Source: a virus
DNA length: 44,365 nt
IMG/VR virus record: IMGVR_UViG_3300042389_000637
Coordinates: 1-44,365 of that record
Reading direction: 5' to 3' (one strand)
Numbering within the stretch: the first letter of the stretch is position 1; each line of letters begins with the position of its first letter. Of this stretch, positions 22,095 through 44,365 are shown in pieces. The notes beneath the pieces were generated by a model, which saw only the letters and a list, made by a program, of their open reading frames with translations, did no database searches and was not told the DNA's origin. Both the position numbers and the translations under genes were made by a program.

Positions 22095-23073
22095 AAAATA
22101 TTTTGATTGGTACATGGGTTTAAACGAAAAGACATCAAGAGTTATTTGCTCTAACAAAATAGAAGATCAAATATATGTAAATAGATTTCCGAGGGAATCA
22201 AAGATTTTAAATAATTGGAGTCATTTGGGAGTTGATACCTCTATAAATAAATATGGTTTTAGAGATAAAGATTTTTTTGAAAAGGCAGATTTATTAATTA
22301 ATGGGTGCTCTCAAACATGGGGTACAGCATTGCCAGAAAAGTATAGATTTTCTAACATAATACAGGAAAGATTTTCAGGGACTGTTCATAATATTGGTTA
22401 TGAGGGTAATTCGGTAGGCTCAGTTATTAGATCAACATTTGCTTACATTAAAAAATTTGGAAACCCTAAATACATATATTTAATGTTGCCTCCATTTGAA
22501 AGAATAGAGTTTATACCTGACAAAAATACTTTTACTAAGTCAGACTGGCTCGCATCCTATAAAGAGTTTCAAAAAGAAGGTGTAGAGGATATTGATTTTT
22601 CTCCAATACAAATTACTACTGTTGATATACATACCCCTATTTATGCAAAAGCTCCATTTTATATAGAAGATGTTATGAATCCACAATCAGCATTTTTTTT
22701 AAATATGCAAATGCTTTTAATGCTAGAGCAATATTGCGATGTTGCAGGTATTAAGTTTATGTGGTCAGCCTGGAATAACTCATACAGAATATCTGATTAT
22801 ATATTTAATATGCAAAATAATTTAAATGAGCACAAAAATTATTTTCATATACCAGTATGGGACTGGGAACTTAATGATGAAAAAATAGACATACTAGACA
22901 CAGCAGATTGTCATAAAGATTTAGAGAGAGAAGACCAAATATTTTTTAATCATGCAATGGATATTGGAAAAAGAAAAACAGAAACACCGCATTGGGGATC
23001 TCATAGAAATAGACATATAGCAGAAAAGATTTTGCATGAAATGAAAAATAGATCATATGAAGGGCTACTATGA
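22075..23073 (+). CDS. SGNH/GDSL-like hydrolase, copy 2
   Basis: A 332-residue paralogue of the preceding gene. INGCSQTWGTALPEKY (block I), HNIGYEGNSVGSV (block II), IYLMLPPFERIEF (block III-like) and WGSHRNRHIAEKILHEM (block V-like His) line up with it. I chose ATG 22075, preceded by the strong SD GAGGAGGT, over earlier in-frame starts; it overlaps copy 1 by 20 bases. The C-terminus is coupled to the carbamoyltransferase (ATGA). Tandem duplication with divergence suggests two related substrates. Confidence 0.65.
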   Translation: MDQHGTKKYFDWYMGLNEKTSRVICSNKIEDQIYVNRFPRESKILNNWSHLGVDTSINKYGFRDKDFFEKADLLINGCSQTWGTALPEKYRFSNIIQERFSGTVHNIGYEGNSVGSVIRSTFAYIKKFGNPKYIYLMLPPFERIEFIPDKNTFTKSDWLASYKEFQKEGVEDIDFSPIQITTVDIHTPIYAKAPFYIEDVMNPQSAFFLNMQMLLMLEQYCDVAGIKFMWSAWNNSYRISDYIFNMQNNLNEHKNYFHIPVWDWELNDEKIDILDTADCHKDLEREDQIFFNHAMDIGKRKTETPHWGSHRNRHIAEKILHEMKNRSYEGLL

Positions 23074-24563
23074 TTATTCTGGGTGTTAATGAAACTTCTC
23101 ATGATGCCTCATTATCTTTAATTAAAGATGGAGAAATACTTTTTGCAGGTCATTCAGAAAGATATAGCAAACAAAAAAATGATTGGTATATTAATGATAG
23201 TTTAGTTAAGGACGCTTTGTCATACGGGGTACCAGATAGTATAGCTTACTATGAGAAACCGCTTCTAAAAGCCTCTAGGCTATTTATAAAGGGTGGTGCA
23301 GGAGACTGGAGGCCAAGGTTTGATTTGCCAGGAGTACCCAGAAAATCTTTCAGCCATCATTACTCACACGCATGTGCTGGATATTATACTAGCAAGTTTA
23401 CAGACGCAGTTATTGTAGTTTTAGATGCTATTGGTGAATACAATACCTCAACAATTTGGGTTGGCGAGGGAGAAAAGATTAGCCTAGTTCATAAGAATAA
23501 TTACCCATTTAGCTTTGGGCTATTCTATTCTGCATTTACAAAATTTTTGGGCCTAATGCCAAATCAAGAAGAATATATTATGATGGGCATGGCGGCTTAT
23601 GGAAACCCAGATAGATATTTTGATCAAGTAAATGAATACTTTCCTAGATATAATAGACAAAAGTATAATTTTCATACAGGCATAACAGATTTTAATTGGG
23701 GAACAACCCCTTGTTTTGCAGGATCTGAAGGCACTGGTTATATATCAGAGTGGTTTAAGCAAAGAGAATTTGATTTGGCTGCAGCCGTTCAAAAGGTATA
23801 TGAAAAAAGACTTATTGAGTATATGCGTTATGCTAAGTTAATTACAAAGAAAACTAATTTAGTTTTTATGGGAGGTTGTGCTTTAAACAGTAAAGCAAAC
23901 ACATCCCTATGGAATATATTTAAAGATGTGTGGATTATGCCAAACCCAGGTGACGCTGGTAGTTCCCTTGGTGCGGCAGCAGCACTGTATGGAAAGCATT
24001 TAGAGTGGAAGACCCCTTACTTGGGTTATGACATGGGCGGGGTTTATCCAGTTCAAGAAATAGTTGATAGCATATTGAAGGACGGTATAGTTGCAGTTGC
24101 TTCAGGAAGAGCGGAATACGGCCCAAGAGCTTTAGGAAATAGAAGTATCTTGGCAGATCCAAGAGATCCAAATGTTAAAGATAAAGTAAATCTAATTAAA
24201 CAAAGAGAGTTATTTCGCCCATTCGCACCAGTGGTTATGGAAGAGTGTGCTTCTAAATGGTTTGACATGGACTTCGCTTCTCCATATATGCAGTATACTG
24301 TTAAGTGTTTAAAGCCAGATTTAATTCCTTCAGTTGTTCATGAAGATGGAACATCTAGAGTTCAAACAGTAAATAAAGAGCAGCACAGAGGTTTGTGGAG
24401 AGTTTTAAATAAATTTTATTTGCAAACGGGTGTACCTGTTTTATTAAATACTAGTTTAAATATAAAAGGTCAGCCATTATTAAACGACCATCAGGACGCT
24501 ATTGACTGGCAGGCACATTATGGATATAATATACTAACGGGCAACAATAGCTTAGTTGGTTAA
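23070..24563 (+). CDS. NodU/CmcH-type carbamoyltransferase
   Basis: A 497-residue enzyme that moves a carbamoyl group from carbamoyl phosphate to a hydroxyl via an adenylate intermediate in known relatives. The N-terminal Kae1-like domain shows GVNETSHDASLSLI, the metal-ligand motif SHHYSHACAGY (about residue 94), VLDAIGEYNTS and FMGGCALNSKAN, then NPGDAGSSLGAAAA. The C-terminal domain shows YGPRALGNRSILADPRD and NTSLNIKGQP. It is shorter than most family members, and its last seven codons and stop lie inside a tRNA gene. Substrate unknown: glycans, small molecules and hydroxymethylated DNA bases are all known for the family. Confidence 0.88.
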   Translation: MIILGVNETSHDASLSLIKDGEILFAGHSERYSKQKNDWYINDSLVKDALSYGVPDSIAYYEKPLLKASRLFIKGGAGDWRPRFDLPGVPRKSFSHHYSHACAGYYTSKFTDAVIVVLDAIGEYNTSTIWVGEGEKISLVHKNNYPFSFGLFYSAFTKFLGLMPNQEEYIMMGMAAYGNPDRYFDQVNEYFPRYNRQKYNFHTGITDFNWGTTPCFAGSEGTGYISEWFKQREFDLAAAVQKVYEKRLIEYMRYAKLITKKTNLVFMGGCALNSKANTSLWNIFKDVWIMPNPGDAGSSLGAAAALYGKHLEWKTPYLGYDMGGVYPVQEIVDSILKDGIVAVASGRAEYGPRALGNRSILADPRDPNVKDKVNLIKQRELFRPFAPVVMEECASKWFDMDFASPYMQYTVKCLKPDLIPSVVHEDGTSRVQTVNKEQHRGLWRVLNKFYLQTGVPVLLNTSLNIKGQPLLNDHQDAIDWQAHYGYNILTGNNSLVG

Positions 24564-24614
24564 AGCCCCGAACTCATAATTCGGTAATCGTAGGTTCAAG
24601 TCCTACTTGTTGCA
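24541..24614 (+). tRNA. tRNA with anticodon CAU (Met or Ile2)
   Basis: A full cloverleaf: acceptor GCAACAA / TTGTTGC, D-stem GCTT / AAGC, anticodon stem CCGAA / TTCGG with loop CTCATAA (anticodon 24575-24577), T-stem GTAGG / CCTAC. G1:C72 pairing excludes an initiator. CAU may be elongator Met, or Ile2 after lysidine modification, reading AUA, a codon much used here. No CCA encoded. The upstream CDS ends in its D-loop. Confidence 0.85.
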
Positions 24615-24628
24615 CATAAGGAGAAACA

Positions 24629-24916
24629 ATGGAAGATGAGAATCTAGATTATTATATTGAAATAGGTGCAGTAGATATTAGCGGGGTTGACGAAAACGGA
24701 GAAATTCTATTTTCTATTACTGAAAAAGCAAAAGACGTTGCTCCAGATTTGTGGAAAGCCCATGTAAAATTTATAGATGAAGCTTTAGTAGAATTATTTA
24801 ATAAAAATTTAATAACTGTTGAGTATAATGAAAATCTAGAAGCCCTTATTTCTTATACTCCAGAGGGAAAATCTTTGCTAAAAGATATTGGATTAAGTCA
24901 CAACGATGGGGATTAG
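24629..24916 (+). CDS. Acidic hypothetical protein between tRNAs
   Basis: A 95-residue protein with SD AAGGAG. The second half (LITVEYNENLEALISYTPEG) resembles a winged-helix tail, but no family is clear. The stop codon TAG is bases 8-10 of the following tRNA-Asn, so the last codons overlap the tRNA. Function unknown. Confidence 0.6.
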   Translation: MEDENLDYYIEIGAVDISGVDENGEILFSITEKAKDVAPDLWKAHVKFIDEALVELFNKNLITVEYNENLEALISYTPEGKSLLKDIGLSHNDGD

Positions 24917-24982
24917 CTCAGATGGTAGAGCGTCGAACTGTTAATTCGAATGTCGCAGGATCGATGCCTGCATCCCCAGCCA
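24907..24982 (+). tRNA. tRNA-Asn (GUU) with encoded CCA
   Basis: Acceptor TGGGGAT / ATCCCCA, TA at 8-9, anticodon stem TCGAA / TTCGA with loop CTGTTAA (anticodon 24940-24942), T-stem GCAGG / CCTGC, discriminator G73 and CCA (24980-24982). U1, A72 and G73 match bacterial tRNA-Asn identity. Confidence 0.92.
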
Positions 24983-24983
24983 T

Positions 24984-25058
24984 ACCCTTGTAGCTCAGCG
25001 GAAGAGCAACAGACTTCTAATCTGTTGGCCGCAGGTTCGATTCCTGCCAGGGGTACCA
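24984..25058 (+). tRNA. tRNA-Arg (UCU) with encoded CCA
   Basis: Acceptor ACCCTTG / CAGGGGT (one G-T pair), anticodon stem ACAGA / TCTGT with loop CTTCTAA (anticodon 25016-25018), T-stem GCAGG / CCTGC, then A73 and CCA. It reads AGA, the dominant Arg codon in the phage genes here. One base separates it from tRNA-Asn. Confidence 0.92.
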
Positions 25059-38517: not shown

Positions 38518-38533
38518 TCTATTAAAAAATAAA

Positions 38534-38572
38534 TGCTATAATAGAGGTATAGATGGACCTCTAGACCCATCT
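38534..38572 (+). promoter_or_regulatory. Extended -10 promoter with 5' stem-loop
   Basis: TGC-TATAAT (hexamer 38537-38542), predicted start near 38549. AGATGG (38551-38556) pairs with CCATCT (38567-38572). SD TAGGAG follows. The stem sequence repeats that of the promoter at 7411 (GATGG/CCATC). Confidence 0.6.
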
Positions 38573-38597
38573 AAATACAACCTATAGGAGTAATACA

Positions 38598-38756
38598 ATG
38601 ACAAACGGAAATGATCTAACAGGATTCAATGAAGTAAAAGCACCAACAACGACAGCTTGGAATGGCGAGCAATATGCAGCAGATCCTGCAGCAGCGTTCC
38701 CATCAACAGATAAGTCGTCACAAGATGGTTCAGGCCTAGGCAACGGCGGTAAGTAA
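38598..38756 (+). CDS. Small Gly/Ala-rich protein (52 aa)
   Basis: SD AGGAG and own promoter. Low-complexity sequence (YAADPAAAFPSTDKSSQDGS) ending GNGGK. It resembles short linker or scaffold-like phage proteins but has no recognised family. The dedicated promoter suggests significant expression. Confidence 0.5.
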   Translation: MTNGNDLTGFNEVKAPTTTAWNGEQYAADPAAAFPSTDKSSQDGSGLGNGGK

Positions 38757-38758
38757 TA

Positions 38759-38905
38759 ATGTGTACAGAATGCGGATGCAACATCTTTGGAATGGCTTAT
38801 ATGGAGCCAGTAACCATCGTTGATGCGTCAACAGATGGAGAGTCAGGTCTAACATTAGAAATGACTGCAACACCAGAGCAGACAAGACAATTTATTAATG
38901 AGTAA
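38759..38905 (+). CDS. Small Cys-rich N-terminus protein (48 aa)
   Basis: ATG 38759, two bases after the previous stop. Begins MCTECGCNIFG, with three Cys that could bind metal with the region's other small proteins. The remainder is strand-rich (VTIVDASTDGESGLTLEM). Overlaps the next gene by 8 bases. Confidence 0.5.
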   Translation: MCTECGCNIFGMAYMEPVTIVDASTDGESGLTLEMTATPEQTRQFINE

Positions 38906-39110
38906 TTTTCAAAAAGAAGACGGTACTGGAATGACTCCACCAGTCGGAGCAGGATCTCCCTCTGGAGCGGTAACAAGTCGTGATGCTACAAGAAAATATC
39001 CAAAGCAAGGCATTAAGCCAAGAATGAAGATAGATGTTAATAGTCACGGAATACGCAGAGAGACATCATTAGATCCAAAGCCTAAGAAGACAAGACCAAA
39101 GAAGGTCTAA
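38898..39110 (+). CDS. Basic, disordered small protein (70 aa)
   Basis: Gly/Pro-rich start (GMTPPVGAGSPSGAV) and Lys/Arg-rich end (LDPKPKKTRPKKV). Followed by a terminator. Basic tail suggests DNA or RNA binding. Function unknown. Confidence 0.5.
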   Translation: MSNFQKEDGTGMTPPVGAGSPSGAVTSRDATRKYPKQGIKPRMKIDVNSHGIRRETSLDPKPKKTRPKKV

Positions 39111-39121
39111 CTATATATTAG

Positions 39122-39152
39122 ATATGGCCCCGTAACTGGGGCTATATTTATT
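39122..39152 (+). terminator. Intrinsic terminator
   Basis: ATATGGCCCC (39122-39131) pairs with GGGGCTATAT (39138-39147), 10 bp with one G-T pair, followed by T-rich sequence. Confidence 0.7.
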
Positions 39153-39163
39153 TAAGGATAACA

Positions 39164-39253
39164 ATGTGCAAGAAATGTGGTAACTGTTCAGCAGAGCATA
39201 ATGGAAGAACTATAGATGATGCTATAGATGAGATCCTTGACTCTCCTATTTAA
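39164..39253 (+). CDS. Micro-protein with CxxC-GNC motif (29 aa)
   Basis: SD AAGGA before ATG 39164. Begins MCKKCGNCSAEH and ends with an acidic helix (TIDDAIDEILDS). Three Cys and a His could bind one metal. Short, so support is weaker, but SD, position after a terminator and Cys pattern agree. Confidence 0.4.
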   Translation: MCKKCGNCSAEHNGRTIDDAIDEILDSPI

Positions 39254-39259
39254 ATATTA

Positions 39260-39272
39260 TATAATGTTATAT
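39260..39272 (+). promoter_or_regulatory. -10 box before the small genes at 39313
   Basis: TATAAT (39260-39265) in an AT-rich stretch; predicted start near 39272 gives a leader of about 40 bases with AGAAGG before ATG 39313. Confidence 0.4.
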
Positions 39273-39312
39273 AGTCACAATTAGTGCAAAAAGTGCGGCG
39301 AAAAGAGAAGGC

Positions 39313-39450
39313 ATGTTAAGAATTAAAAGTATTTTGTGTAAGATTAAAGGACACACATTAGTAATGGCGGGATCATGCCCTTTTACTGGATCAACTTATG
39401 AATATTGTGAAAGATGCACTGCAATGATTCCTATTCAGGTGGCAGTATGA
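39313..39450 (+). CDS. DUF1660-like small zinc-binding phage protein (45 aa)
   Basis: Reads ILCKIKGHTLVMAGSCPFTG...YEYCERCTA: C-x3-G-H, then C, then C-x2-C. This matches the short 'C-x-x-x-G-H ... C-x-R-C' DUF1660-type prophage proteins. Probably a structural zinc site. ATGA overlap with the next gene. Confidence 0.6.
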   Translation: MLRIKSILCKIKGHTLVMAGSCPFTGSTYEYCERCTAMIPIQVAV

Positions 39451-39557
39451 AAGAACCAAAGATTATGAAAATGGACTGGCGTTCATTAGGCTACTGGCCT
39501 GTATATAAAGATGGAAAGCTTACATGGGAAAAGGATATAGATGAAAATGTTAATTGA
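39447..39557 (+). CDS. Tiny protein (36 aa)
   Basis: ATGA overlap with the preceding gene and 17-base overlap with the next. Sequence includes MDWRSLGYWPVYKDGKLTWE. Translation is supported by coupling only. Function unknown. Confidence 0.45.
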   Translation: MKEPKIMKMDWRSLGYWPVYKDGKLTWEKDIDENVN

Positions 39558-41676: not shown

Positions 41677-42003
41677 ATGGCATATAGCAGATTCACCAAT
41701 AGCGATATATACATATATCCCAATGTAGCAGGACATATCGAATGTGCAGCCTGTTATTTAAATGAACCACAAGATGAATATTCCTTATTTTCAATGTCTG
41801 AGAATATAACCAATGATGATCAATTAAGAGCTCATCTGGAAGAACATGCCAGAGCTGGTCATGATATGCCAGAGAACTTGCTTCAAGATATCCTGGCTGA
41901 TCCAGACAGATATGGCAGAATGATAGGATATTCTACAGGCAAATGGTCAGATGATGATGATATGCATCCTACAATCACTCCTATATTTGGACCAAATAGG
42001 TAG
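41677..42003 (+). CDS. Conserved-looking small protein with C2H2-like pattern
   Basis: A 108-residue protein with SD AAGGCGGGG-like. YIYPNVAGHIECAACYLNE followed by LRAHLEEHARAGHDMP gives C-x2-C ... H-x4-H, as in a zinc finger. The arrangement is common in actinophage proteins of this length. Last plus-strand gene before the non-coding region. Confidence 0.65.
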   Translation: MAYSRFTNSDIYIYPNVAGHIECAACYLNEPQDEYSLFSMSENITNDDQLRAHLEEHARAGHDMPENLLQDILADPDRYGRMIGYSTGKWSDDDDMHPTITPIFGPNR

Positions 42004-42060
42004 CTAACTCCTATATCCCCCCGCCCATAAACATGGCTCATATGGCCTCCTAGACCCCTT

Positions 42061-42107
42061 ATAAATGGAGTAAAGTGGAGCATAGTGGAGAATTTATACT
42101 ATAGATA
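42061..42107 (+). repeat. Three helically phased 10-bp repeats with a -10 box
   Basis: The 10-bp units at 42061, 42071 and 42081 all end in TGGAG, so the TGGAG cores lie on one face of the helix. TATACT (42095-42100) follows, with no -35, which would fit an activator-dependent promoter starting near 42107. Confidence 0.55.
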
Positions 42108-42216
42108 CAGTTAGATTAGTTATAGCTTTATCGACAAATATATGTATGTGTAATTGTGCCCTTTCATATGATGCGCCGTAATGTCAAATTTGATCTGGAG
42201 ACATATGGACACATCT

Positions 42217-42270
42217 ACCAAATTTCAGGGATTTTGTCAATGCCCTCGTAAATGGCATATTTTGCCCACA
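42217..42270 (+). repeat. 54-bp direct repeat, copy 1
   Basis: Core AAATTTCAGGGATTTT (42220-42235), 10 variable bases, TCGTAA (42246-42251), 7 variable bases, ATTTTGCCCACA (42259-42270). Blocks and spacings equal those of copy 2. Confidence 0.9.
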
Positions 42271-42373
42271 TTGTCAATAGATTTTATGTAGAAAATTCTG
42301 ACAAATTCTGGGTATATTATGCTTAATTCATTATATGTTTTAAATGATTTTATATAGATTTGTCGACATTTCC

Positions 42374-42427
42374 TACAAATTTCAGGGATTTTTAATATGC
42401 TGTCGTAAAGGAGAAATTTTGCCCACA
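42374..42427 (+). repeat. 54-bp direct repeat, copy 2
   Basis: AAATTTCAGGGATTTT (42377-42392), TCGTAA (42403-42408), ATTTTGCCCACA (42416-42427), same spacings as copy 1. A half copy of the first block occurs near 42300-42321 and a looser copy at 43441-43489. Confidence 0.9.
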
Positions 42428-42440
42428 TGACCACAACAAA

Positions 42441-42473
42441 AAATCCACAGGATGTGGATAACCCTGTGGATAA
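42441..42473. other. DnaA-box cluster with nested palindromes
   Basis: TGTGGATAA occurs at 42453-42461 and 42465-42473, each a perfect reverse complement of the DnaA box TTATCCACA, 12 bp apart. ATCCACA (42443-42449) forms an inverted repeat with the first, and TCCACAGG / CCTGTGGA (42444-42451, 42463-42470) forms a second. Confidence 0.75.
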
Positions 42474-42527
42474 TTTGGGCTCATATACTAACCAACTAAG
42501 TATATGTTTGCCTTAGATAAATTTAAT

Positions 42528-42740
42528 CTATTGCCATCTATGTCTAGGTTTTTCTAGATTGATTAATATAGGTGATAGATCTATATTAGGTGAAGATGTT
42601 ACTACCAGTCCCACCCGCCTTGGTTTAATACTTGGCTTAGGGTTGTTAACAGCTTTGTGTGCGTTCCTGATGTGATCAGGTAGTGATCTTTCCCATCGAG
42701 CAAGCTCTTGGGTGGTTGGATATTTTCTTTTTTCTTTCAT
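42528..42740 (-). CDS. Small basic protein, minus strand
   Basis: A 70-residue, Lys/Arg/Pro-rich protein: LARWERSLPDHIRNAHKAV and KPSIKPRRVGLVVTSS. Two bases downstream of its upstream neighbour, so one operon. A HTH-like helix is possible. Function unknown. Confidence 0.5.
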   Translation of the reverse strand: MKEKRKYPTTQELARWERSLPDHIRNAHKAVNNPKPSIKPRRVGLVVTSSPNIDLSPILINLEKPRHRWQ

Positions 42741-42742
42741 GA

Positions 42743-43168
42743 TTAGATAAAGGGATGGTCTATCGTTACATGTGTTCTGGTATCTGTGTCGTGCAACCAG
42801 GAATGTCGGTAGCTTTGGGTTTCAACCTTCGGCATCTTTTTAATAAACTTAGCAGGGTCCACTGGAAGCTTTATATTTTCCCATTTGTAAGTCTTAATTA
42901 ATCTATTAAGAGTTTCATTTAACTCATTTGCTAGGAACAATCCTTCAGATGATTGTCCTGAATTATATATACCGTCTTCTGTATTTAATTCATCATTATG
43001 TCTGTTGGCCTGCCACCTAATAATTTGGGCGACTAGTTCCATAATGCGGTCAACTGTATAAAATGGTTGGTCTGTTAGATATCTTGCCAATATGGCAGGA
43101 TTAAACCAATGGTCTTCCGTTAGGTTGACTAGGTCTTCTGCTACTTTGATTTCTCTTGTCTTACTCAT
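42743..43168 (-). CDS. Hypothetical helical protein, minus strand
   Basis: A 141-residue protein with SD-like AAGGCGGAAG. Helical: DRIMELVAQIIRWQANRH and LFLANELNETLNRLIKTYKW. C-terminal His-rich stretch (SYRHSWLHDTDTRTHVTIDH). It has its own promoter. No family recognised. Confidence 0.6.
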   Translation of the reverse strand: MSKTREIKVAEDLVNLTEDHWFNPAILARYLTDQPFYTVDRIMELVAQIIRWQANRHNDELNTEDGIYNSGQSSEGLFLANELNETLNRLIKTYKWENIKLPVDPAKFIKKMPKVETQSYRHSWLHDTDTRTHVTIDHPFI

Positions 43169-43190
43169 ACTTCCGCCTTCCGCCTTGGTA

Positions 43191-43226
43191 ACTACTCATT
43201 ATATCAAAATTAGGGAGGGGTGGCAA
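43191..43226 (-). promoter_or_regulatory. Minus-strand promoter for the gene ending at 42743
   Basis: On the minus strand TTGCCA (43226-43221), 17 bases, TATAAT (43203-43198), predicted start near 43191; 22-base leader with a double AAGGCGG purine tract before the ATG. Confidence 0.65.
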
Positions 43227-43245
43227 CTCTCGTCAACCACCCCTC
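43215..43245 (-). terminator. Terminator-like hairpin after the Lsr2-like gene
   Basis: GAGGGGTGG / CCACCCCTC, 9 bp, 13-base loop; on the minus strand it is followed by CCCTAATTTT. It overlaps the -35 of the next minus-strand promoter. Confidence 0.6.
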
Positions 43246-43252
43246 GTTCTAT

Positions 43253-43405
43253 TTACTTGGCCTTGTTGGTAACTGGCTGTGGGTCTGTAAAGGTAACGCC
43301 TTTGTTCATAGCTTCCTGGATTGCAACCTTAGCTGCGCCTGAGAAACGTCCACGTACACCTACTGTGATGCCTTGTGACTTGAGATATTCTCGCTTTGTT
43401 GTCAT
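43253..43405 (-). CDS. Lsr2-like DNA-binding peptide (50 aa)
   Basis: Found by reading the minus strand between larger genes. REYLKSQGITVGVRGRFSGA matches the C-terminal DNA-binding domain of Lsr2 ('reWa...G..vsdRGRip..v..Ay'), including the R-G-R that enters the AT-rich minor groove. The N-terminal dimerisation domain of Lsr2 is absent. SD AAAGGATC, own promoter and terminator. A candidate xenogeneic-silencer mimic or antagonist; function inferred. Confidence 0.6.
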   Translation of the reverse strand: MTTKREYLKSQGITVGVRGRFSGAAKVAIQEAMNKGVTFTDPQPVTNKAK

Positions 43406-43424
43406 TATGATCCTTTCTAGATCT

Positions 43425-43460
43425 TTTATTAATTATAACAGATTTTCACGGGATTGTAAA
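43425..43460 (-). promoter_or_regulatory. Minus-strand extended -10 promoter of the Lsr2-like gene
   Basis: TTTACA (43460-43455), 17 bases, TGT-TATAAT (43437-43432), predicted start near 43425. The promoter overlaps the third, degenerate copy of the long repeat. Confidence 0.65.
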
Positions 43461-43489
43461 TACCTGTCGTAAAGCGGACAATTTGCCCC
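43441..43489 (+). repeat. Degenerate third copy of the long repeat
   Basis: GATTTTCACGGGATT, then TCGTAA (43467-43472), 7 bases, AATTTGCCC (43480-43488). Block order and the 7-base spacing match copies 1 and 2; the first gap is one base shorter. Confidence 0.65.
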
Positions 43490-43653
43490 TACTTTAAAAT
43501 TTTTGCTGCCAACTTATCTTTAATTAGTTTTTGTTCTTCACGCCAGCGCTGCCAATGATTAACTTGTTTAATCTCAACATCAACTTCGGGCGGGCATTCG
43601 AGAATGTATGGGACTCCCCCAACTATCTCTATCTTTACTTTATACTGACTCAT
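43489..43653 (-). CDS. Small hypothetical protein (54 aa), minus strand
   Basis: Starts at ATG 43653, inside the 3' end of the next gene upstream (14-base overlap). Strand-rich start (YKVKIEIVGGVPYILECPPE), then a basic helix (WQRWREEQKLIKDKLAAKIL). Function unknown. Confidence 0.55.
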   Translation of the reverse strand: MSQYKVKIEIVGGVPYILECPPEVDVEIKQVNHWQRWREEQKLIKDKLAAKILK

Positions 43654-43777
43654 CGACTAACCTATCTTTAATTAGTTTAGCAATTAGATTATGTGCTTCG
43701 ATGTTCTCTGTTTCAGATCCGCCCCACAAAAGCTTTTGGGCCTCTGCAAGGACGGAGTCTACATATTGATCACTCAT
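43640..43777 (-). CDS. Small helical protein (45 aa), minus strand
   Basis: I prefer ATG 43777, which overlaps the upstream gene by 8 bases, to longer in-frame starts that read through its Glu/Asp tail. VDSVLAEAQKLLWGGSETEN and a second helix. 'LIKDRL' recurs in similar form (LIKDKL) in the next protein. Function unknown. Confidence 0.55.
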   Translation of the reverse strand: MSDQYVDSVLAEAQKLLWGGSETENIEAHNLIAKLIKDRLVDESV

Positions 43778-44096
43778 CTTCATCTTCTTCCTCATCTTCC
43801 TCTTCGTCTTCCTCAAACATTGTGTCCACAATGTATTCACGATTCATCATCCATTCAAGGACATCCTCCTGATGTTGTTCTGCCCCATACTCTAGGGAGA
43901 AGCCGTGTCCAGCCTCCACAGCCTCACACAGGTGCCCCCACATATCATCCTGAGTAACGCTAGCCCTGTAGGTCTCATCGTCTAGGATGTTGTTAATTGT
44001 GCTCCACGTCCACAACCAAACCAAGGACAGCCCAAGGTCGGTGGTATCAAGAATCTTTAAACATTCGTTTAGTTTATCTTTATCTGCTGGCTTCAT
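43770..44096 (-). CDS. Acidic protein, minus strand
   Basis: A 108-residue protein. Helical, Trp-rich (LGLSLVWLWTWSTINNILDD), ending in a run of Glu and Asp (FEEDEEEDEEEDED). The acidic tail could mimic DNA. Overlaps both neighbours. Function unknown. Confidence 0.6.
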   Translation of the reverse strand: MKPADKDKLNECLKILDTTDLGLSLVWLWTWSTINNILDDETYRASVTQDDMWGHLCEAVEAGHGFSLEYGAEQHQEDVLEWMMNREYIVDTMFEEDEEEDEEEDEDE

Positions 44097-44316
44097 ATGC
44101 TAATTCCTTTTCTTCCCATTGTGCGAGTGTTCTGACTGTAAAGTCTTTTCCGAGATTGTAGCAGAATCGAACGGATTCCTCAAGTGTGGTAGCACTAAAA
44201 ATCGGAGGATTAGAATGGTCACGTTCATCAAGACTATAGACTTCAAACTCATCAATACCTCCAGGACTAATAGAATAGTTTACTTCTAAAATTTCTAAAC
44301 TAGGTTTATCATACAT
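44080..44316 (-). CDS. Hypothetical protein, first gene of the minus-strand operon
   Basis: A 78-residue protein from ATG 44316, chosen because GGAG lies 7-10 bases upstream; an in-frame TTG at 44334 is possible. Strand-rich (SLEILEVNYSISPGGIDEFE) with a helix (TLEESVRFCYNLGKDF). Overlaps the next gene by 17 bases. Function unknown. Confidence 0.6.
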   Translation of the reverse strand: MYDKPSLEILEVNYSISPGGIDEFEVYSLDERDHSNPPIFSATTLEESVRFCYNLGKDFTVRTLAQWEEKELAYEASR

Positions 44317-44346
44317 CTCGTGCTCCAATCGCAAATGATAGTTGAT

Positions 44347-44359
44347 ATGTTAGATTATA
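44347..44359 (-). promoter_or_regulatory. Minus-strand -10 box at the window edge
   Basis: TATAAT on the minus strand (44359-44354), predicted start near 44347, about 30 bases before ATG 44316. The -35 lies beyond the window. Confidence 0.5.
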
Positions 44360-44365
44360 TAGTTC

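Follow-up and report, generated by a model that had tools for sequence, protein, structure and literature searches.

We analysed a 44,365-nucleotide stretch of viral DNA (IMG/VR record IMGVR_UViG_3300042389_000637, positions 1 to 44,365; hereafter the window) and found that the non-coding element at positions 42004-42527 is most likely, as judged from its sequence, the left end of the packaged genome of this phage, that is, a concatemer junction. The whole explanation, which we consider probable, is of a left terminus with a cut at 42155^42156, followed by a terminal repeat of approximately 14 kb and flanked by sites for the host proteins MraZ and DnaA. The computed support for this explanation comprises conservation of the element, synteny with phages whose ends have been mapped, end motifs, and a match to bacterial MraZ operators. 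Placement of a terminus at the element is well supported for the window's phage by comparison with these end-mapped relatives.

A non-coding element between converging genes

The element and its surroundings contain the following features (coordinates in the window, strand, description).

41677-42003, plus strand: gene of 108 aa with no family match, the final rightward gene left of the element
42004-42527, no strand: non-coding element between converging genes, with three blocks conserved in divergent viral contigs
42065-42090, plus strand: triple MraZ operator, ATGGAG, GTGGAG and GTGGAG at 10-bp steps, with bacterial counterparts upstream of mraZ; in 31/31 covering alignment rows
42091-42146, no strand: A+T-rich stretch between the MraZ boxes and the predicted terminus, seen in sequence and alignment
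42147-42160, plus strand: predicted left-end motif TGTGTAATT^GTGCC, rank 1 of 218,538 by matrix in G001; the predicted first packaged base is 42156
42156-44365, no strand: start of the predicted 14,064-bp direct terminal repeat, which runs past the window to base 41880 of G001
42177-42187, plus strand: conserved word CGTAATGTCAA from the alignment, with CGTAATGTC in 31/31 covering rows
42199-42271, plus strand: direct repeat copy 1 (CAGGGATTTT ... TCGTAAA); similar TCGTAAA repeats occur in gaps of cultured phages
42356-42428, plus strand: direct repeat copy 2, from a repeat search
42434-42471, minus strand: terminator-like hairpin with U-run from folding, holding DnaA boxes, downstream of the leftward genes
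42453-42461, minus strand: perfect DnaA box TTATCCACA, from a box scan
42465-42473, minus strand: perfect DnaA box TTATCCACA, from a box scan
42528-42740, minus strand: gene of 70 aa with no family match, the last leftward gene, adjoining the element

Genes lie on the plus strand up to 42003 and on the minus strand from 42528, in a convergent arrangement. The initial annotation had proposed this element as a candidate replication origin, and the sequence features on which it relied were confirmed: three [AG]TGGAG repeats start at 42065, 42075 and 42085; the two long direct repeats are real, at 73 nt each, 74% identical and offset by 157 bp; and two perfect DnaA boxes lie 12 bp apart within an inverted repeat (I2). 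These boxes are the sole perfect pair in the window, which holds 2 perfect boxes against 0.54 expected from base composition. The assertion that this is the longest non-coding stretch of the window held at an ORF cut-off of at least 70 aa, where the gap is 524 bp, but not at other cut-offs. With a 60-aa cut-off the gap 42004-42527 is split by a 65-aa ORF on the minus strand (42237-42434), and with an 80-aa cut-off the longest gap is 38518-39540, of 1023 bp. G001, a longer record of this phage, has gaps at the 70-aa cut-off that exceed that of the element and reach 1719 bp. This 1719-bp ORF-free stretch was considered as a second origin candidate and rejected, as by eye it consists of tiny leftward ORFs in succession.

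Loci L008-L010 and L012-L014 match the final rightward gene only in its last ~25 codons (41925-42003), which are 93-96% conserved; in L005, L006 and L008 several hundred bases separate this stretch from the element. An Rfam search of the window returned tRNAs only, and a DNA search of cultured phages with the element as query gave zero matches. The window also carries a Nol-like carbamoyltransferase and three tRNA genes (Met, Asn and Arg) at 23070-24563 and 24541-25058.

The phage is an environmental relative of cultured actinophages

The protein families found included a PolIII alpha subunit, a DnaB-like helicase, a primase, a RecA/UvsX-type recombinase, RuvC, a terminase and WhiB. The WhiB gene points to an actinobacterial host, WhiB having been described as a sign of actinophages (PMC10202952). 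The same phage is represented by G001, a viral record of 109,282 bp with 99.9% identity over 1524 bp around the element, whose ends overlap by 138 bases and which therefore maps as a circle. The nearest cultured phages by polymerase are Stanwilliamsviridae, at 50-58% identity, and we predict that the window's phage is an environmental relative of this family with a packaged genome of ~123 kb. The polymerases of eight records fetched by means of the MraZ pattern are 53-57% identical to that of the window, and that of G015 is 63% identical. ParB, DnaA and MraZ domains were each detected in 0 of 16 phage records, which weakens a reading of the phage as a phage-plasmid or as the possessor of its own DnaA.

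The element is conserved in divergent viral contigs

Three blocks of the element, 42004-42107, 42219-42270 and 42373-42481, keep their order in many divergent viral contigs. We aligned 35 rows (the window and its own phage included) picked by similarity to 42372-42482. The MraZ triple was present in 31/31 rows covering its region, and the perfect DnaA pair in 32/35 rows, a figure that leans upward because the query used to pick the rows included the boxes. The array that had been put forward as an origin recurs in related phages, with perfect boxes at the element absent in L007 and L011. The DnaA pair was present in 43 of the 47 records searched. We also examined 19 records found by their polymerase, which are the longer contigs (62 kb and more) among at least 80 matches listed. 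Six of these 19 carry the MraZ triple among the matches listed, and all six also carry the DnaA pair, at +388 to +417. Polymerase and element lie 25-37 kb apart in complete records, and judged by this distance most of the other 13 polymerase-found contigs end before the element, with G152 and G160 borderline.

Synteny and end motifs predict a packaged-genome left end

When rotated to the element, G001 is largely collinear with LukeCage, Peebs, BillNye and Annadreamy, with 56, 54, 58 and 55 tblastn matches respectively, some of which are antisense ORFs over the same genes. The deposited LukeCage and Peebs genomes have identical end repeats of 12,291 and 11,072 bp, with zero mismatches, which begin in a convergent gap 60 and 49 bp past DnaA boxes, and the leftward genes of G001 match genes within these repeats. 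The 11,072-bp repeat of Peebs is reported from read pile-up and doubled coverage (PMC5764925), and PhageTerm mapping gave the 12-kb repeat reported for Coruscant (PMC7650747). The left end of the Stanwilliamsviridae repeat, as in Peebs and LukeCage (cluster BE Streptomyces phages), shares with the element converging genes, a non-coding gap, DnaA boxes near the end and TCGTAAA repeats, in addition to collinear gene order. The two differ in the position of the DnaA pair, which is inside the predicted repeat for the window's branch and outside the repeat in Peebs and LukeCage. The predicted repeat encodes DUF932 (L164:13909-14916) and GP88 (L164:17346-18134) proteins, which have counterparts in the LukeCage and Peebs repeats.

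The left-end motif TGTGTAAT.GT.C of Peebs and LukeCage and their right-end motif are also present in the window's phage. The sequence TGTGTAATG^GTGC or close variants is common to the ends of LukeCage, Peebs, Coruscant, Gilson, Wakanda and Faust, and a left-end matrix was built from these six cultured ends. This matrix ranked the site at 42147-42160 first of 218,538 in G001, and in the distant record G017 the site ranked first of 221,328 also lies inside the element. Several results count against a left end here. The aligned site in the near relatives G002-G006 ranks only 18-83 genome-wide, and no good left-end site was found by the matrix in the elements of G013 or G015. The matrix also omitted BillNye and Annadreamy, 2 of 8 cultured ends with known context; in both, the deposited end comes 24 nt after GGGTAATA and is missed by the matrix. 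The deposited end of these two phages, at the start of the right-hand repeat, directly follows a hairpin-like 24 nt after GGGTAATA, a placement suggesting that the end carries a hairpin or that its call is shifted.

The right-end motif TATC[AG]TACA...TAACATTT lies at the end of the repeat in 4/4 cultured phages. It occurs once each in G001, G002, G004, G005 and G006 (5/9 environmental records; in G006, near the start of a linear contig), with an expectation of 0.011 per 110 kb from mononucleotide shuffles. The strict motif is absent in G003, G013, G017 and G015, which also weighs against the terminus, and a looser pattern was found in G015 only. From the position of the motif in G001, the repeat is predicted to span 14,064 bp and the packaged genome ~123.2 kb (109,144 + 14,064), which is the size class of the cultured relatives. 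Contig ends were considered as proof of a terminus and rejected. They fall near the element at varying bases (5 of the 43 records that carry the DnaA pair stop 147-413 bp left of it and 6 more within 0.5-3 kb), and they do not constitute proof because shared sequence of coexisting phages can also break assemblies.

The 10-bp repeats match bacterial MraZ operators

An exact search of bacterial genomes with the triple gave at least 138 sites in at least 119 stretches. Among the matches listed, a MraZ start motif lies no more than 900 bp downstream of 95 of the 138 sites, mostly at 60-150 bp, and 8 sites had less than 300 bp of sequence downstream. Many of the remaining 43 sites are simple tandem repeats. 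All four proteins tested downstream of bacterial sites were MraZ by Pfam (PF02381). The 10-bp repeats of the element are identified as an MraZ operator by this match to bacterial sites: the MraZ operators of bacterial division clusters, like the element, consist of three direct repeats at 10-bp steps, and the letters of the element's triple are those of operators in Microbacterium, Clostridia, Bacteroidales and other bacteria. In Mollicutes, MraZ is reported to bind direct repeats AAAGTG[T/G] and to repress the division cluster, and it represses its own cluster in E. coli and M. genitalium (PMC8475190). Unlike the bacterial operators, the viral sites are not followed by mraZ: a MraZ motif was found within 700 bp downstream of 0/100 unique viral sites (which include ten simple repeats in one locus, L345), and none of the 16 phage records encodes MraZ.

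To relate the triple to DnaA boxes we grouped the 110 viral sites remaining without L345 into 74 clusters, which gave 65 representatives with full flanks. In this set the MraZ boxes are present by construction and the DnaA boxes are not. A perfect DnaA box lies within -170 to +500 of the triple in 57/65 lineage representatives, whereas control sequence held 7 boxes in 251,136 bp, or 0.019 per 670 bp. The other 8 lacked a perfect box, and some of these hold just a one-mismatch box. In a second, distant phage branch, the DnaA box is just upstream of the triple (54/65 lineage representatives) and the gene arrangement is also convergent, with mostly rightward genes left of the site and leftward genes right of it. 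In G015, three DnaA boxes lie just downstream of the triple.

The triple was found in 0/10 cultured records and is seen only in environmental phages, which counts against host MraZ sites as a part of the left end, and a limited literature search found no published report of an MraZ operator in phages. Use of the MraZ box as a host identifier was tried and rejected, the exact pattern being present in 10/119 genomes of the order of one actinobacterial bin.

DnaA boxes lie in a terminator-like palindrome and cluster in cultured relatives

On the minus strand, the palindrome that contains the DnaA boxes folds into a hairpin followed by a U-run (-20.7 kcal/mol, z -3.4) and reads as a leftward intrinsic terminator as well. 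L007 and L011 have lost the boxes but keep a stronger hairpin (z -6.2), in which the two differ by a single compensatory pair.

We searched the cultured records of nine Streptomyces phages and one Rhodococcus phage, and in 8/10 two or three DnaA boxes are clustered at one locus. Clustered boxes were not found in Coruscant, which has no perfect DnaA box near its terminus, or in Rhodococcus phage Peregrin. In four phages, Annadreamy, Faust, Gilson and LukeCage, the DnaA locus coincides with an annotated gap measuring 1.27-1.76 kb. Peebs has three boxes, two within a 0.98-kb gap and the third inside the end of a small annotated gene; those of BillNye are found at the border of a small annotated gene and within a gap of 353 bp. 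In five cultured phages (BillNye, Annadreamy, Faust, Gilson and Wakanda) the locus lies 5.4-6.5 kb from the start of the right-hand repeat, which argues against a left end flanked by host sites. The DnaA locus is thus separable from the terminus in cultured relatives, which speaks for a job of its own. A limited literature search for DnaA boxes at phage terminal repeats gave one Ori-Finder prediction, of boxes at 70.5-70.9 kb of a 95-kb Pseudomonas phage with a 628-bp repeat (PMC11512268).

The 21-mer TTATCCACAGGGTTATCCACA, which holds two DnaA boxes, was present in at least 119 viral contig stretches (loci L044-L162). It is often inside tandem DnaA-box arrays, with up to 12 perfect boxes in 500 bp (L127), in phages that the element does not link to this one. 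Since it matches many unrelated tandem arrays, that word alone cannot identify the element.

In G001, 7/8 perfect DnaA boxes fall in the leftward arm or the element. Those other than the pair are in leftward-arm intergenic modules (L164:15028-15070, L164:17150-17210 and L165:540-620), which carry CAGGG and CGTAA words resembling the window's direct repeats. CRP-type palindromes TGTGA-N6-TCACA are likewise confined to the leftward arm (7/7 G001 sites, 6.9-13.3 kb from the DnaA pair); they include the site L164:15008-15023, and one is ~74 bp upstream of a predicted leftward start, by eye. The minus strand of G001 holds 11 copies of a promoter-like pattern, TGTCAG-N6..9-TGnTAnnnT, and the plus strand holds 0 (0.4 in shuffles). 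All 11 sites are in the leftward arm (L164 and L165), and the pattern is similar in other environmental records (nine in all). The TGTCAG word lies near -28 and recalls activator-dependent phage middle promoters.

Alternative explanations for the element

A DnaA-dependent origin, in which host DnaA on the box pair and a phage initiator on the repeats would open the A+T-rich stretch and load the helicase, is a serious possibility that falls somewhat short of being probable, and the origin and terminus readings can both be true. Bacterial and plasmid origins with DnaA boxes, like the element, combine perfect boxes in pairs, repeats and A+T-rich sequence within a single non-coding stretch, and in the element this arrangement lies in a conserved region. 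Clustering of the boxes at one locus in most cultured records, even 5.4-6.5 kb from the terminus, indicates that they are not merely part of a packaging site, and the finding that none of the 16 phage records encodes DnaA also favours dependence on the host protein.

Unlike those origins, however, the element, which is known here from sequence alone, has converging genes and a skew maximum. Detrended cumulative GC skew, proposed in the initial annotation as a check, reached its maximum at or near the element in the 9 records, the opposite of a classical bidirectional origin and the pattern of a terminus. The maximum was within 350 bp of the element in 5/9 records and 1.6-7 kb off in the other 4; this is weak evidence on an origin because skew follows gene strand here. 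An exceptionally unstable duplex that could act as an unwinding element was also rejected, as the least stable duplex near the element ranks 2-29 in 60-bp windows or 5-34 in 100-bp windows and never first. Perfect boxes are missing in 8/65 lineage representatives, in L007 and L011, and near the Coruscant terminus, and the other G001 boxes lie in leftward-arm intergenic modules. The origin proposal was therefore borne out in the conservation of its DnaA boxes, but not in skew, duplex stability or the presence of perfect boxes in every relative.

The element could instead be a hub of host regulators, with an MraZ-controlled rightward promoter and boxes that sense or titrate DnaA and MraZ while replication starts elsewhere. 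The MraZ boxes of the window's branch stand close behind a -10-like TATAAA or TATATA, DnaA boxes share the leftward-arm intergenic modules with CRP-type palindromes, and the repression by MraZ of its own cluster noted above would fit such a role. However, no rightward ORF of 60 aa or more follows before the leftward genes, and promoter-like sites are no commoner than in shuffles (9 found vs 7.3 expected), and we consider this explanation unlikely. That the DnaA boxes are mere arms of an intrinsic terminator and DnaA has no role is quite improbable: the hairpin of the window and the stronger, box-free hairpins of L007 and L011 agree with it, but the second branch and cultured phages keep perfect boxes elsewhere near the same junction, and the loop of the window's hairpin contains a further box that is not needed for the stem.

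Discussion

Taken together, the MraZ match, the synteny and end motifs, and the terminator reading make the element most likely a left end flanked by sites for host factors. In the mechanism that we propose, terminase would cut at 42155^42156, and the leftward genes would lie in a direct terminal repeat of ~14 kb that starts at the cut. The triple MraZ operator, just outside the cut, would be bound by the host cell-division regulator MraZ, and the DnaA-box pair, in the leftward-gene terminator hairpin ~300 bp inside the cut, would be bound by host DnaA. MraZ and DnaA would then govern replication that starts at the terminal repeat, or the copying of this repeat, before packaging. Control by the host proteins of replication at the repeat, or of its copying, would be the most likely role for these sites.

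A phage with a long terminal repeat has to generate a second repeat copy out of its concatemers; in T5 the repeat holds the pre-early genes. To our knowledge, how synthesis of the second repeat starts is not settled for most long-terminal-repeat phages. The predicted 14,064-bp repeat is in a similar length class to those of T5 and SPO1 (10,139 and 13,185 bp; PMC5764925), to which it is likened by length alone. A conserved DnaA-box region touches a mapped end in culturable Streptomyces phages, and thus the question of repeat synthesis is testable now.

The MraZ operator, if true, would be a direct wire from the phage to host division control. We suggest, tentatively and with some doubt, that in a widespread group of actinobacterial phages an MraZ operator and DnaA boxes beside the packaging cut may gate copying of the terminal repeat, or packaging, by the host cell cycle.
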